Assembly: GCF_004138205.1 (NCBI RefSeq)
Contig: NZ_RXNQ01000006.1
Coordinates: 62,001 to 126,000 of the forward strand
DNA: 64,000 nt
Reading direction: 5' to 3'
Origin: Pedobacter sp. SYP-B3415
GTDB lineage: Bacteria > Bacteroidota > Bacteroidia > Sphingobacteriales > Sphingobacteriaceae
Part shown: positions 52,080 through 55,646 of the stretch, in pieces
How the letters are laid out: each line of letters begins with the position of its first letter
How positions within the stretch are numbered: the first letter of the stretch is position 1
Notes under the pieces: generated by a model
Told to the model about the DNA's origin: nothing
Databases searched by the model: none
What the model saw: only the letters and a program-made list of their open reading frames with translations
Made by a program: the position numbers and the translations under genes

Positions 52080-52853
52080 TTGAGCTTTCCATTTACATTC
52101 GAACTGGGTGGTCACACCATTTACCTGCATGCTATCACCGAATGGCTCGCTATATTTGCTGGGTTCCGGTACTACCTGCTGCTCCGCAGGAAGCAGGGCG
52201 ACCAGATTACCAGCGAAACGCGGATATGGATCATTATCGGAGCTATGTTTGGTGCACTGGCCGGCAGCCGGCTGGTTGGGGGTTTGGAAAATTATCCCGA
52301 AATGGCTGCTTCAACACAAAAGGCATTCTATTTTTTCAGCAACAAAACCATCGTCGGTGGTTTGCTCGGTGGCTTGTTTGGTGTCGAGTTCACGAAGGCT
52401 ATTGCAGGGGAGCATAAAAGATCAGGTGATCTGTTCGTATTCCCGATTATTCTCGCATTGATCATTGGCCGGACGGGCTGTTTCAGCATGGGCCTCGCAG
52501 AACAAACATACGGGCTCAGAACAGGGCTGCCATGGGGAATCGACCTGGGTGACGGCATACCCAGACACCCGGTCTGCCTGTATGAGATTTTCTTTTTGGT
52601 GCTGCTTTGGTTATCTTTAAGCTGGCTTAAGGCAAAGCAGCCACCGCAATCAGGCGGTCTGTTCAGAATTTTTATGATCAGTTACCTGATTTTTCGCTTT
52701 ATGCTCGATTTTATAAAACCACATTTTACCTGGAGCGCCGGCTTGTCGACGATACAGTTTGCATGCCTTGCCGGCCTTGTCTGGTACATTTACGATAGCC
52801 TGAGCACGATGAAACGCGCTCAACAGATTAAACAAACCCAACCTGATGCCTGA
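52080..52853 (+). CDS. Lgt (prolipoprotein diacylglyceryl transferase) family paralogue
   Basis: A 257-residue polytopic membrane protein with about seven hydrophobic segments. Lgt hallmarks are present: SRLVGGLENY, IIGRTGCF (the essential Arg) and RHPVCLYEIFF (RHPxxLYE). But the FHGG motif, whose His is catalytic in E. coli Lgt, reads TIVGGLLGG, so that His is missing. The start is TTG with the first ATG far inside. Because the gene overlaps the next by 8 bases and that gene encodes a tetraether-synthase-like radical SAM protein, I infer a different lipid-handling role from canonical lipoprotein lipidation. A plain lgt is the alternative. Confidence 0.8.
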   Translation: MSFPFTFELGGHTIYLHAITEWLAIFAGFRYYLLLRRKQGDQITSETRIWIIIGAMFGALAGSRLVGGLENYPEMAASTQKAFYFFSNKTIVGGLLGGLFGVEFTKAIAGEHKRSGDLFVFPIILALIIGRTGCFSMGLAEQTYGLRTGLPWGIDLGDGIPRHPVCLYEIFFLVLLWLSLSWLKAKQPPQSGGLFRIFMISYLIFRFMLDFIKPHFTWSAGLSTIQFACLAGLVWYIYDSLSTMKRAQQIKQTQPDA

Positions 52854-54249
52854 AAGACCTTACACCTATTATGATTTTACCCTCAGTCTGTGCCCACACT
52901 GTCTAAAGCGCATTGATGCCAAAATCGTTTTCCAGGATAATAAAGTATACATGCACAAGACGTGCCGTGAGCACGGATTTATGCGTGTTTTAATTGCGTC
53001 TGATGTGGAATACTATAAAAATATCCGCAACTATAATAAACCTTCAGAGGTCCCGCTGAAGTTTAATACGACCACGCATTATGGCTGTCCGTACGATTGC
53101 GGTCTGTGTGCCGACCACGAGCAACACAGTTGTCTGACCGTTGTTGAGATAACCGACCGCTGCAACCTGAGCTGCCCGACCTGTTACGCCATGAGCTCCC
53201 CGCACTACGGAAGGCACCGTACGCTACAGGAGGTAGAGCGCATGTTTGATCTTATCGTGGAAAACGAAGGTAAGCCCGACGTGGTGCAGATTAGCGGAGG
53301 TGAGCCAACCGTTCATCCCGACTTCTTTGCCATACTTGACATTGCCAAAACCAAGCCGATCAAACACCTGATGGTAAATACAAACGGTATACGTATAGCC
53401 AAAGACCTCGACTTTACCCGCAGGCTTGCGTCATACATGCCAGACTTCGAGATTTATCTTCAGTTTGATTCGTTCAGACCAGAGGTCCTGATGCAGATGC
53501 GCGGGCAGGATCTTACCGATGTACGGATCAAAGCACTTGAGCACCTGAATGAAGTAAATCTCTCGACTACGCTTGTGGTCACGCTCCAGCAGGGGCAGAA
53601 TGACGATGAGATCGGTCAGATTATCGATTTTGGGTTAAAACAGTGCTGCGTAAGGGGCGTAACTTTCCAGCCTACACAAGTTGCGGGAAGGCTCGAAAAT
53701 TTTGATCCTGCAACAGACCGCATTACGATGACTGATGTGAGGCAAAAGATTCTTGACCAAAGCCCGGTCTTTCAGGAAAACGACCTTATCCCGGTGCCCT
53801 GTAATCCGGATGCGCTGGTGATGGGTTATGCCCTCAAGCTTGGTGGGCAGGTATTTCCGATGACCCGTTATGTAGACCCGGCACATCTCCTGAACAATAG
53901 CCGCAATACCATTGTTTATGAACAGGACGCAACCCTGCACGAGCACATGATCAAAATCTTCAGTACAGGAATTTCCGTAGACCGCGTACAGGAGAACATC
54001 AACGACCTGATGTGCTGTTTGCCACAGATCGAGGCACCGGGACTAAGCTATGATAACCTGTTTCGGATCATCATCATGCGGTTTATAGATGCTTACGATT
54101 TCGATGTAAGATCGATCAAGAAAAGCTGCGTGCATATTGTACACAAAGATGGCAGGATTATTCCCTTCGAAACCATGAACCTGCTTTACCGTGATGAGAA
54201 GGAAGATCAGCTTAAACAATTGCAGGCACAGGCCGCAGGACTGATATGA
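52846..54249 (+). CDS. Multi-cluster radical SAM protein (MJ0619 / tetraether synthase-like)
   Basis: A 467-residue radical SAM enzyme. Order: an N-terminal rubredoxin-like cysteine set (Cys16, Cys19, Cys40), the THYGCPYDCGLCADHEQHSC region (Cys81, Cys85, Cys88, Cys96), then the SAM cluster motif CNLSCPTC (Cys106, Cys110, Cys113), followed by the core with ISGGEPTVHPD and VNTNGIRI. Further Cys in the C-terminal half (KQCC, PVPCNP, LMCC, SCVH) suggest auxiliary clusters. From memory this is the pattern of MJ0619-family proteins, which include archaeal tetraether synthase Tes joining lipid tails. The product here is unknown. It overlaps the Lgt-like gene by 8 bases and the next by 4. Confidence 0.85.
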   Translation: MPERPYTYYDFTLSLCPHCLKRIDAKIVFQDNKVYMHKTCREHGFMRVLIASDVEYYKNIRNYNKPSEVPLKFNTTTHYGCPYDCGLCADHEQHSCLTVVEITDRCNLSCPTCYAMSSPHYGRHRTLQEVERMFDLIVENEGKPDVVQISGGEPTVHPDFFAILDIAKTKPIKHLMVNTNGIRIAKDLDFTRRLASYMPDFEIYLQFDSFRPEVLMQMRGQDLTDVRIKALEHLNEVNLSTTLVVTLQQGQNDDEIGQIIDFGLKQCCVRGVTFQPTQVAGRLENFDPATDRITMTDVRQKILDQSPVFQENDLIPVPCNPDALVMGYALKLGGQVFPMTRYVDPAHLLNNSRNTIVYEQDATLHEHMIKIFSTGISVDRVQENINDLMCCLPQIEAPGLSYDNLFRIIIMRFIDAYDFDVRSIKKSCVHIVHKDGRIIPFETMNLLYRDEKEDQLKQLQAQAAGLI

Positions 54250-54491
54250 ACAATTTTTGGAAATATACGCTGGTATTGATCGGGGCAAATATATTACTGA
54301 TGCTCCTGAGCCTAACTGCCGAAGAATTTTTCGGCGTGTTGTTATTAGCGGTCGGCATGCAATTGATTGCCGGCGTCGTCATGTGCTTCGATGCGCAGAA
54401 ACGTGTGTTTGGGCAGGCTATGCTGGCGTCTATAGGAATTCTGCTTGTCGTCGGGTTTTCATTTTGTACAATCCTTCTCGTAAACGGATGA
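54246..54491 (+). CDS. Small membrane protein, paralogue A
   Basis: An 81-residue protein with three hydrophobic segments (YTLVLIGANILLMLLSL, FFGVLLLAVGMQLIAGVVM, MLASIGILLVVGFSFCTILL) and a short charged loop (DAQKRVFGQ). Its ATG overlaps the radical SAM stop (ATGA), and its own stop overlaps the next start the same way. I recognise no family. It is a clear paralogue of the next gene: both have an MxNFxK start, G-x-Q-x-x-x-G in the middle, R-x-x-G-x-A and VGFS-x-C near the end. A partner or scaffold for the preceding enzymes is likely. Confidence 0.8.
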   Translation: MNNFWKYTLVLIGANILLMLLSLTAEEFFGVLLLAVGMQLIAGVVMCFDAQKRVFGQAMLASIGILLVVGFSFCTILLVNG

Positions 54492-54742
54492 CAAACTTCA
54501 GGAAGCTTTTTCTAGTCTGCATCGTACTTGATGCGTTGTTGATACTGGCCTGCTGGGCCGGGCCAAGCGATGTGCTGATGGTTCCGTTTTTTGTGTGCGG
54601 ATTCCAGTTTCTGATCGGGCTTATACTTTGCTGCATTTCCTATACTAGGGAATTGGGAAAGGCACTGGTTTTATCAGGGCTGATCGGTGCGGTAGTCGGC
54701 TTTTCAGTCTGCTCGGCCAATTTCCGGCTGGACACGAAATAA
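54488..54742 (+). CDS. Small membrane protein, paralogue B
   Basis: An 84-residue membrane protein, paralogue of the one before: MTNFRKLFLVCIVLDALLIL, CGFQFLIGLILCC, RELGKALVLSGLIGAVVGFSVC. It starts at the ATG within the overlap with the upstream stop; a longer frame extends back over the neighbouring gene and is not real. It is the fourth and last gene of the coupled operon. Function unknown. The retained GxQ and VGFSxC positions suggest the pair might form a hetero-oligomer in the inner membrane. Confidence 0.78.
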   Translation: MTNFRKLFLVCIVLDALLILACWAGPSDVLMVPFFVCGFQFLIGLILCCISYTRELGKALVLSGLIGAVVGFSVCSANFRLDTK

Positions 54743-54747
54743 GTTAC

Positions 54748-55569
54748 TTACTCATCGTCTTTTATCTTCCCGATAGACCGCATAGCTTCTACCGCGAAAG
54801 AAAGTAATCTCAGGTGCTCATCGCGATGTCCGTGCTGCACCTCCACATTGATGTAGGGGATGTTGTGCTTTTGTGCAAAGACAGACATCGAGCCATCGTT
54901 CAAAGCGTTTTTAGACTGCAGGATAACGTTGATGTTGTGCTTTTTGATATAGTTGAACAGGCGAACATCGGTTACATAAATCAGATCGTCGCTGTCCATC
55001 TCAAAGTTAACATGCACAGAGTCTGCGGTCGACTCCAGATCATAACCCTTCAGATACGAATTGATGCCAAAGCCCCCGTCTGCGTTATTATGTAACGTAA
55101 TAAAATAGTCGTGATCTTTGTAATTATAGGCTTTGAGAATTTCTTCGCCGGCATCCATTAACAGTTTCATTGCACGGTTGCTAATGATATCGCTGTATTT
55201 TTGCAGGCCCAGTTTAACCCCTTCTTTTGTATAGATCGCGTTGGGGTCAACCTGGTACTGGTCTGTCTCAAACGTAAAGCGAAAGTTCCGCACGGAGCCA
55301 TACTGGCAATCGACGATACTGCCGCCATTGGTCTGTATATAATCAAATGCTGCCTTTACACCGGTATCTTCATCATCATGAATAGTAAGGAAACGAACGT
55401 TCGAACCTCCGTAACTGTACTTGACAAGATTCAGCGAGAGGTCGCTTATCTGCAGTTTTGTGCTGTCTGTTTTCATGCCCTCGAAAACAGGCGGATGTTG
55501 TGCGTTGACGGTTCGAGTTTGAAAGCACAGGCCCAATACAAAGGCCAGCAGGATCAGGTGTTTTCCCAT
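54748..55569 (-). CDS. Secreted M14-carboxypeptidase-like protein (unassigned)
   Basis: A 273-residue protein with signal peptide MGKHLILLAFVLGLCFQTRTVNA; I choose this start (55569) over a 20-codon extension that precedes the signal. The motif FLTIHDDEDTG has H-x-x-E (His64, Glu67), followed by His160 in ITLHNNADGGFG, a zinc layout like M14 carboxypeptidases and the AstE/AspA branch. A Glu in YINVEVQHGHRDEH could be the base. The sequence is otherwise unfamiliar, so activity is only suggested. It is convergent with the radical SAM operon. Confidence 0.6.
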   Translation of the reverse strand: MGKHLILLAFVLGLCFQTRTVNAQHPPVFEGMKTDSTKLQISDLSLNLVKYSYGGSNVRFLTIHDDEDTGVKAAFDYIQTNGGSIVDCQYGSVRNFRFTFETDQYQVDPNAIYTKEGVKLGLQKYSDIISNRAMKLLMDAGEEILKAYNYKDHDYFITLHNNADGGFGINSYLKGYDLESTADSVHVNFEMDSDDLIYVTDVRLFNYIKKHNINVILQSKNALNDGSMSVFAQKHNIPYINVEVQHGHRDEHLRLLSFAVEAMRSIGKIKDDE

Positions 55570-55646
55570 ATTGACATTACAGACAATATTAGGGCTTAAA
55601 ATGTTTTGGTGTAGCGCAAGGCAGCGCATGCATAGTTCTTAAACAA

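Follow-up and report, generated by a model that had tools for sequence, protein, structure and literature searches.

An Lgt paralogue, a tetraether-synthase-like radical SAM protein, and small Cys-ended membrane proteins encoded together in a conserved Bacteroidota gene cassette

Layout of the cassette

The window that we analyzed is a stretch of 64,000 nucleotides from the soil-type bacterium Pedobacter sp. SYP-B3415 (contig NZ_RXNQ01000006.1, positions 62,001 to 126,000), and the system in question is a cassette of four successive plus-strand genes within it. These genes encode a paralogue of Lgt, a radical S-adenosylmethionine (SAM) protein related to the tetraether synthase Tes, which joins lipid tails in archaea, and two small membrane proteins with a cysteine motif near the C terminus (Table 1). 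A preliminary description made from the sequence had recognized four open reading frames (ORFs) overlapping by 4 to 8 bases; they are there as it said, with overlaps of 8, 4, and 4 bases. Could this arrangement be a chance overlap of ORFs? The Pfam E-values (6e-21 for LGT, PF01790, in gene 1; 1e-27 for Radical_SAM and 2e-20 for the HMPTM zinc ribbon in gene 2) and the same gene order, found again in many genera when neighborhoods were compared, rule this out. In the source genome (4.47 Mb, 37 contigs), the radical SAM gene is single-copy.

Table 1. Positions in the window of the four cassette genes and of the motifs within their products.
Feature	Coordinates	Strand	Basis
Lgt-fold paralogue, 257 amino acids, TTG start	52080..52853	+	PF01790, 75 bits; model versus 5azb, Z 13.1; residue columns of 82 copies
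TIVGG replacing the H103-GGL motif of Lgt (V92 at the His103 position)	52347..52361	+	Aligned to 5azb; aliphatic V/L/M/I, 82 copies
R131-T-G-C134: Arg143 kept, Asn146 replaced by Cys	52470..52481	+	R and C in 82/82 copies
Tes/MJ0619-type (class D) radical SAM protein, 467 amino acids	52846..54249	+	PF23545, PF04055; 7tol, E 1.4e-68; model versus 7tom, Z 35.7
Rubredoxin-type metal site C16-x2-C19-x20-C40-x2-H43	52891..52974	+	Invariant in 42 homologues; GDGT-MAS spacing (PMC9433317)
N-terminal auxiliary cluster motif C81-x3-C85-x2-C88-x2-H91-x2-H94-x-C96	53086..53133	+	Invariant in 42 homologues
Radical SAM cluster motif C106-x3-C110-x2-C113 (C106-NLS-C110-PT-C113)	53161..53184	+	Sequence; PF04055
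C-terminal auxiliary site C319, C390, C391, M411, C428	53800..54129	+	Homologue invariants; comparison with two Tes-clade proteins; alignment
Small membrane protein 1, 81 amino acids, two transmembrane segments, C-terminal GFSFC	54246..54491	+	Hydropathy and motif as in the L045 homologue
GFSFC of small protein 1 (Cys74, 7-residue tail)	54453..54467	+	Sequence; motif statistics
Small membrane protein 2, 84 amino acids, hydrophobic, C-terminal GFSVC	54488..54742	+	Sequence; L045 homologue with GFSVCSANFRLDTK
GFSVC of small protein 2 (Cys75, 9-residue tail)	54698..54712	+	Sequence; motif statistics

Pairing of the two enzymes across Bacteroidota

We followed the cassette through the best 80 of 547 loci, all of them Bacteroidota from named genomes, and through an even sample of 395 genomes of the phylum Bacteroidota, for which we chose thresholds of E ≤ 1e-40 (radical SAM protein) and E ≤ 1e-20 (this Lgt subtype). 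The radical SAM gene occurred in 34 of the 395 genomes, the Lgt subtype likewise in 34, and both in 32 (Fisher p 2e-42, a value that is overstated because the genomes are related). At least 5 genomes carry both genes unlinked, and in 2 of the 32 shared genomes (G091 and G327) the two lie on different contigs. The divergence of the two proteins is correlated as well (Mantel r 0.89, 82 pairs). The Lgt paralogue lay within three genes of the radical SAM gene at 72 of the 80 loci and also at L094 (intact adjacent copy, L181), and at four of the other seven loci (L052, L108, L117, and L122) the subtype was elsewhere in the genome, not beside the radical SAM gene. Is Lgt missing in Saprospiraceae? 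We mostly reject this idea, as whole-genome searches of 9 genomes recovered the subtype in 7; they gave no Lgt subtype in the genomes of L119 and L046, and the contig of L046 has just 309 bases ahead of its radical SAM gene. The radical SAM protein and this Lgt subtype are obligately paired, and the gene set is conserved across Bacteroidota. The gene-neighborhood survey by which the preliminary description proposed to challenge its own reading found the order conserved and the pair together in 32 of 34 genomes, and left that reading unrefuted.

The genomic context of the cassette varies: most members of the window's genus carry it ahead of pheT, and in Chitinophagaceae it lies elsewhere. The window's copy falls within Chitinophagaceae, next to the copy of Pedobacter yulinensis (91%), and is separate from two other lineages of its own genus; the window's Lgt has the same nearest relatives. 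This grouping suggests that the cassette has moved horizontally. We rejected a phage origin, since the radical SAM protein had zero matches in 50,697 phage records and a PHROGs search with the Lgt paralogue and both small proteins returned no match. Because the best 80 loci are all from Bacteroidota, the spread of the cassette outside this phylum is known from plasmid records alone.

Two further arrangements were seen. The order at L155, L156, and L157 is radical SAM gene, ICMT/PEMT-type membrane methyltransferase, DUF4395, Lgt paralogue, and Cys-ended small membrane protein. The Mycobacterium avium plasmid pS2b (L168, NZ_CP076860.1) has a window-like layout, in which an Lgt-family gene and a distant class D radical SAM gene accompany the gene for a 98-amino-acid protein ending ...LSAGYCTGLNPSDYRSY. 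The radical SAM gene is interrupted in two genomes of the window's genus, by an in-frame TAA in one (L025, G018) and by a split into two frames in the other (L043, G002), and many relatives of these carry an intact gene. The cassette seems to be dispensable in some strains, or else the interruptions are sequencing errors.

An Lgt fold with a probably altered acceptor side

The product of the first gene scored 75.2 bits against PF01790 (cut-off, 24.9) and far under every NCBIfam cut-off for Lgt. Its model (predicted local distance difference test [pLDDT] score, 93) matched the fold of Escherichia coli Lgt (5azb) with a Z of 13.1 over 238 residues, so the claim that it is an Lgt relative holds. 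The residues reported as essential in E. coli Lgt are Y26, H103, R143, N146, G154, and R239 (PMC13251419). In the window protein, R143, R239, Y235, and G154 have their equivalents in R131, R206, Y202, and G145, whereas Y26, H103, and N146 are replaced by H17, V92, and C134. This pattern extends to the whole subtype. What the cassette paralogue has in common with canonical Lgt is the fold together with R143, R239, Y235, G154, G142, and G145, each invariant in 82 of 82 cassette copies; what differs is Y26 (His), H103 (V/L/M/I), and N146 (Cys), with these replacements in 81 to 82 of the 82. R246 is Lys in cassette copies. Natural Lgt variants include H103Y/W/F in some proteins and N146C in distant ones (PMC13251419), and the place proposed for binding of the lipobox peptide is where H103 lies (PMC4728403). 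Set against these published roles, the retained and replaced residues suggest that the side of the enzyme serving the phosphatidylglycerol donor is kept and that the acceptor side is changed.

The same replacements (Y26, H103, and N146) rule out a second canonical Lgt. The source genome has three Lgt-family genes: the canonical Lgt (L021), with SHGG and FGN motifs, a second paralogue (L022), and the cassette Lgt. L022 (G000:C23:198480-199565) encodes a 411-amino-acid protein whose HGGL site reads FYGG and whose signature reads GRMGCH.

A class D radical SAM protein outside Tes and TrsS

The second gene product scored above cut-off for both domains of the class D (HMPTM/MJ0619) superfamily, with 72.8 bits for the HMPTM N-terminal zinc ribbon PF23545 (cut-off, 27) and 97.5 bits for Radical_SAM PF04055 (cut-off, 29.5), and on these domain scores it is a member. 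Its top solved relative is GDGT-MAS (7tol/7tom; E 1.4e-68; profile E 8e-76). An AlphaFold2 model built from 42 sequences (predicted template modeling score, 0.79; mean pLDDT, 71; low confidence at residues 62 to 94 and in parts of 347 to 398) matched the whole-chain fold of 7tom with a Z of 35.7 and a root mean square deviation of 3.1 Å over 414 residues (model residues 5 to 451). The next structural family, MoaA, reached a Z of 19.0, and SkfB reached 16.6. These matches agree with the MJ0619-type assignment made earlier, and the cysteines then pointed out (Cys16/19/40, Cys81/85/88/96, and CNLSCPTC) are present as described. All described cysteines of the protein are invariant in the 42 homologues. 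H43 takes the fourth ligand position beside C16, C19, and C40, and the spacing of this site is identical to that of the rubredoxin motif of GDGT-MAS, C9-x2-C12-x20-C33-x2-H36 (PMC9433317). The N-terminal C/C/C/H cluster motif, too, agrees with the one in the GDGT-MAS publication (PMC9433317).

Does the protein belong to Tes itself? The Tes profile NF045702 gave 291.4 bits against a cut-off of 450, with a best stretch covering positions 2 to 312 of 486, and Tes membership was rejected on this score and on the replacement of Tyr459 and two C-terminal cysteines. The best NCBIfam score, over full length, came from the TrsS profile NF045646 (328.2 bits), which is likewise under its cut-off (490), and TrsS membership was rejected also. 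Distant cassette members, too, score higher for TrsS than for Tes. Because both scores are below the curated cut-offs, we place the protein in neither family. In the comparison with Tes that had been suggested as a check, then, class D membership stood and membership in Tes proper did not.

The cassette protein shares with Tes/GDGT-MAS the whole-chain fold, the rubredoxin motif, the N-terminal auxiliary motif, the CX3CX2C motif, and 29 to 31% identity in the structural alignment. The labile Met439 of GDGT-MAS has its counterpart in M411, whereas Tyr459 corresponds to Ile431; both Met439 and Tyr459 are fully conserved in 1000 archaeal homologues of GDGT-MAS (PMC9433317). Where two Tes-clade proteins from this phylum have two of their C-terminal cysteines, the cassette protein has Ser and Glu, and it has C319, C390, C391, and C428 instead. 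Of those two proteins, one (G121) passes the Tes cut-off with 493.8 bits and the other falls just below it with 441.9. Beside the Tes-clade genes of G121 and G357, which are radical-SAM-only genomes, we found neither an Lgt gene nor a Cys-ended small protein. True Tes genes of this phylum stand without an Lgt partner, whereas the cassette radical SAM gene is regularly paired with the Lgt paralogue and small proteins. TrsS is a radical SAM (seleno)protein, and no selenocysteine position was seen in the cassette protein. The TrsS-like plasmid relatives that we examined adjoin a methyltransferase and not an Lgt cassette: in Mycolicibacterium vanbaalenii (L167) and the haloarchaeon Salinirubellus (L169), a SAM-dependent methyltransferase gene directly follows the radical SAM gene in the place of Lgt.

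Small membrane proteins with a C-terminal Cys motif

A Pfam scan of the two small proteins gave nothing above cut-off. At 77 of the 80 loci, the radical SAM gene precedes one or more short ORFs that encode at least two hydrophobic segments; these ORFs often stand in tandem, in two to four copies, and their sequences are very divergent. The pattern [GS]x[SGTA]xC was present in the last 32 residues of 104 of 126 small proteins and in 10 of 138 control ORFs, which were short hydrophobic ORFs from other parts of those loci and not necessarily genes, all ORF calls being mechanical. This conserved motif was absent from the preliminary description. When the proteins were aligned on the Cys, position -4 was Gly in 88%, -3 was Phe in 66%, -2 was Ser or Gly in 84%, and -1 was T/V/L/I. 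The 16 residues ahead of the Cys are strongly hydrophobic, the loop before them is net positive in 92%, and 3 to 16 residues follow the Cys. Given this loop, the positive-inside rule would place the motif Cys where the last helix reaches the periplasm.

In cassettes at 37 to 60% identity, too, a Cys lies close to where the last helix ends, within the segments LLFGACIIGLGG (L155), FGSCLSILF (L157), LLQGLCALG (L161), VGPGACFGV (L175), and LSGGMCIFL (L176); the small protein of the M. avium plasmid has LSAGYCTGL. With a lipobox signal peptide, the motif has in common a positive region, a hydrophobic stretch, and a Cys with a small residue at -2. The signal peptide is N-terminal, whereas the cassette motif is C-terminal, after one or two other transmembrane segments and with its short tail. 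The lipobox [LVI][ASTVI][GAS]C has G/A/S at -1 and the cassette motif mostly T/V/L/I, so the lipobox pattern does not match it.

Possible function of the cassette

What might these proteins do together? We tentatively favor a maturation system for the small membrane proteins, in which the Lgt paralogue would lipidate their Cys, with either the lipid tail or the Cys segment as the target of the radical SAM enzyme; we give this proposal less than an even chance. The small proteins would then be the substrates. At the end of the last helix, the Cys would face the periplasm, the side on which Lgt acts, much as if a lipoprotein signal peptide stood at the C terminus, and the Lgt paralogue would move a diacylglyceryl group, or a relative of it, from phosphatidylglycerol to this Cys. 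The radical SAM enzyme, by analogy with Tes, may pull a hydrogen off an unactivated alkyl carbon in the lipid tail or Cys segment and form a new bond, for example from tail to tail, which would yield a cross-linked or membrane-spanning protein-bound lipid. We favor maturation because the radical SAM protein has the fold and cofactor layout of GDGT-MAS over its whole chain, and because the Lgt fold retains an invariant Arg143 and Arg239 with Y26, H103, and N146 replaced. The reading draws as well on the co-occurrence of the two enzymes even where unlinked, with correlated divergence; on the variable, often tandem small proteins with a loop-helix-Cys layout that follow the radical SAM gene; and on the distant cassettes and the M. 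avium plasmid, which keep Lgt and a Cys-ended small protein.

Several observations weigh against maturation. The paralogue lacks H103 and N146, without which E. coli Lgt does not function, so that diacylglyceryl transfer itself is uncertain. The radical SAM protein is without the Tyr459 and two C-terminal cysteines of Tes and has the better score for TrsS. Saprospiraceae and a few others keep the small protein with the radical SAM gene and have Lgt elsewhere, which makes the radical SAM enzyme, and not Lgt, the nearest partner of the small protein in genetic terms. The pattern behind the motif statistic is degenerate, the Cys is missing from a few tandem copies, and the T/V/L/I at -1 instead of the canonical G/A/S makes ordinary Lgt and LspA poor fits. 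The lipidation, the lipid product, and the substrate roles are all predictions.

One potential alternative is that the radical SAM enzyme couples or alters the tails of ordinary phospholipids, as a Bacteroidota route to membrane-spanning or cross-linked lipids, with the small proteins as subunits that anchor it in the membrane or deliver lipid to it, and with an Lgt paralogue that passes diacylglyceryl from phosphatidylglycerol on to a small molecule. Free lipids are what Tes itself works on, and it binds phospholipids of bacteria (PMC9433317); the altered acceptor side of the paralogue would suit a nonprotein acceptor. We consider this free-lipid route somewhat unlikely; with its small proteins as subunits it follows close behind maturation, because the radical SAM gene and the small protein gene are the tightest pair. 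However, anchors need not be hypervariable or tandem or end in a conserved Cys motif, and Tes genes of the same phylum manage without Lgt and small proteins. The preliminary description, which had called the small proteins two membrane subunits within a lipid or lipoprotein tail modification system, was partly supported: the enzyme identities and the membrane nature of the small proteins hold and the gene set is conserved, the lipid chemistry is a prediction, and the subunit role is doubtful, since the small proteins look more like a variable, multicopy family of substrates.

A pathway resembling that of ribosomally synthesized and posttranslationally modified peptides (RiPPs) would have the radical SAM enzyme modify the peptide at or near the motif Cys and the Lgt paralogue lipidate the same molecule. 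Conserved enzymes beside variable, multicopy short proteins with a single conserved motif fit it, as does the presence of radical SAM and small protein genes together even where Lgt is elsewhere, and RiPP-lipoprotein hybrids in Bacteroidota provide a precedent (PMC12636315). The proposed DAG-RiPPs of that study (ChrH/Dyb-type MNIO clusters) would have in common with the cassette a metalloenzyme modification joined to the lipoprotein pathway and a short protein, and they share its phylum; they rely on the ordinary Lgt, on a signal peptide at the N terminus, and on an MNIO enzyme, whereas the cassette has a dedicated Lgt paralogue and a Tes-like enzyme. The cassette layout is compatible with their scheme as far as genes go, chemistry aside. 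But the nearest structural relatives of the radical SAM protein are lipid enzymes and not the RiPP maturase SkfB (Z 35.7 for 7tom versus 16.6), the motif is probably on the periplasmic face whereas the radical SAM enzyme is cytosolic, and no leader-binding domain was identified; we regard a RiPP-like role as improbable. More improbable still is a TrsS-like role unrelated to lipids, with the Lgt paralogue as a membrane partner devoid of transferase activity. The higher-scoring, full-length alignment to TrsS (328 versus 291 bits for Tes, and the same preference in distant members), the loss of H103 and N146, and the plasmid relatives adjoining a methyltransferase speak for it, whereas the strictly kept donor-side residues argue for lipid binding at least and the full-length fold match is with GDGT-MAS.

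Relation to known systems

Class D radical SAM enzymes and Lgt-fold enzymes are known, and we did not find their combination in one cassette described: searches of the open-access literature, a scope that misses most subscription papers, turned up no account of an Lgt, Tes-like, and small-protein cassette. The cassette touches a question raised in that literature, namely the role of bacterial tetraether synthase homologues, which have repeatedly been described as functionally untested (PMC9433317, PMC8941075, PMC11868695). Its hosts form a large group that can be cultured and is for the most part aerobic (Pedobacter, Mucilaginibacter, Chitinophaga, and Tenacibaculum). With such hosts, a defined partner enzyme, and defined candidate substrates, the role of the bacterial homologues becomes directly testable by genetics and mass spectrometry. 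The "Tes hits" in Bacteroidota that are used to infer tetraether producers split into true Tes and an Lgt-linked subfamily, which matters for the reading of metagenomes. More broadly, the cassette may point to an undescribed way of attaching and reworking membrane lipids, and if the Cys is lipidated, the motif would be a C-terminal counterpart of the lipobox. A bolder proposal, which we think unlikely to hold, is that maturation would extend to a new class of lipid-modified proteins: small, polytopic, lipidated on a C-terminal-helix Cys by a dedicated Lgt variant, and with tails joined or altered by a Tes-like enzyme, which would yield protein-anchored lipids, cross-linked or membrane-spanning, in Bacteroidota and beyond.

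Genes around the cassette

In the window, the cassette adjoins MFS and RND genes. Convergent with it on the minus strand, at 54748-55629, is a gene for a 293-amino-acid protein with an apparent secretion signal and without a Pfam match. In Pedobacter yulinensis (L045), a minus-strand gene for 273 amino acids occupies the same place.

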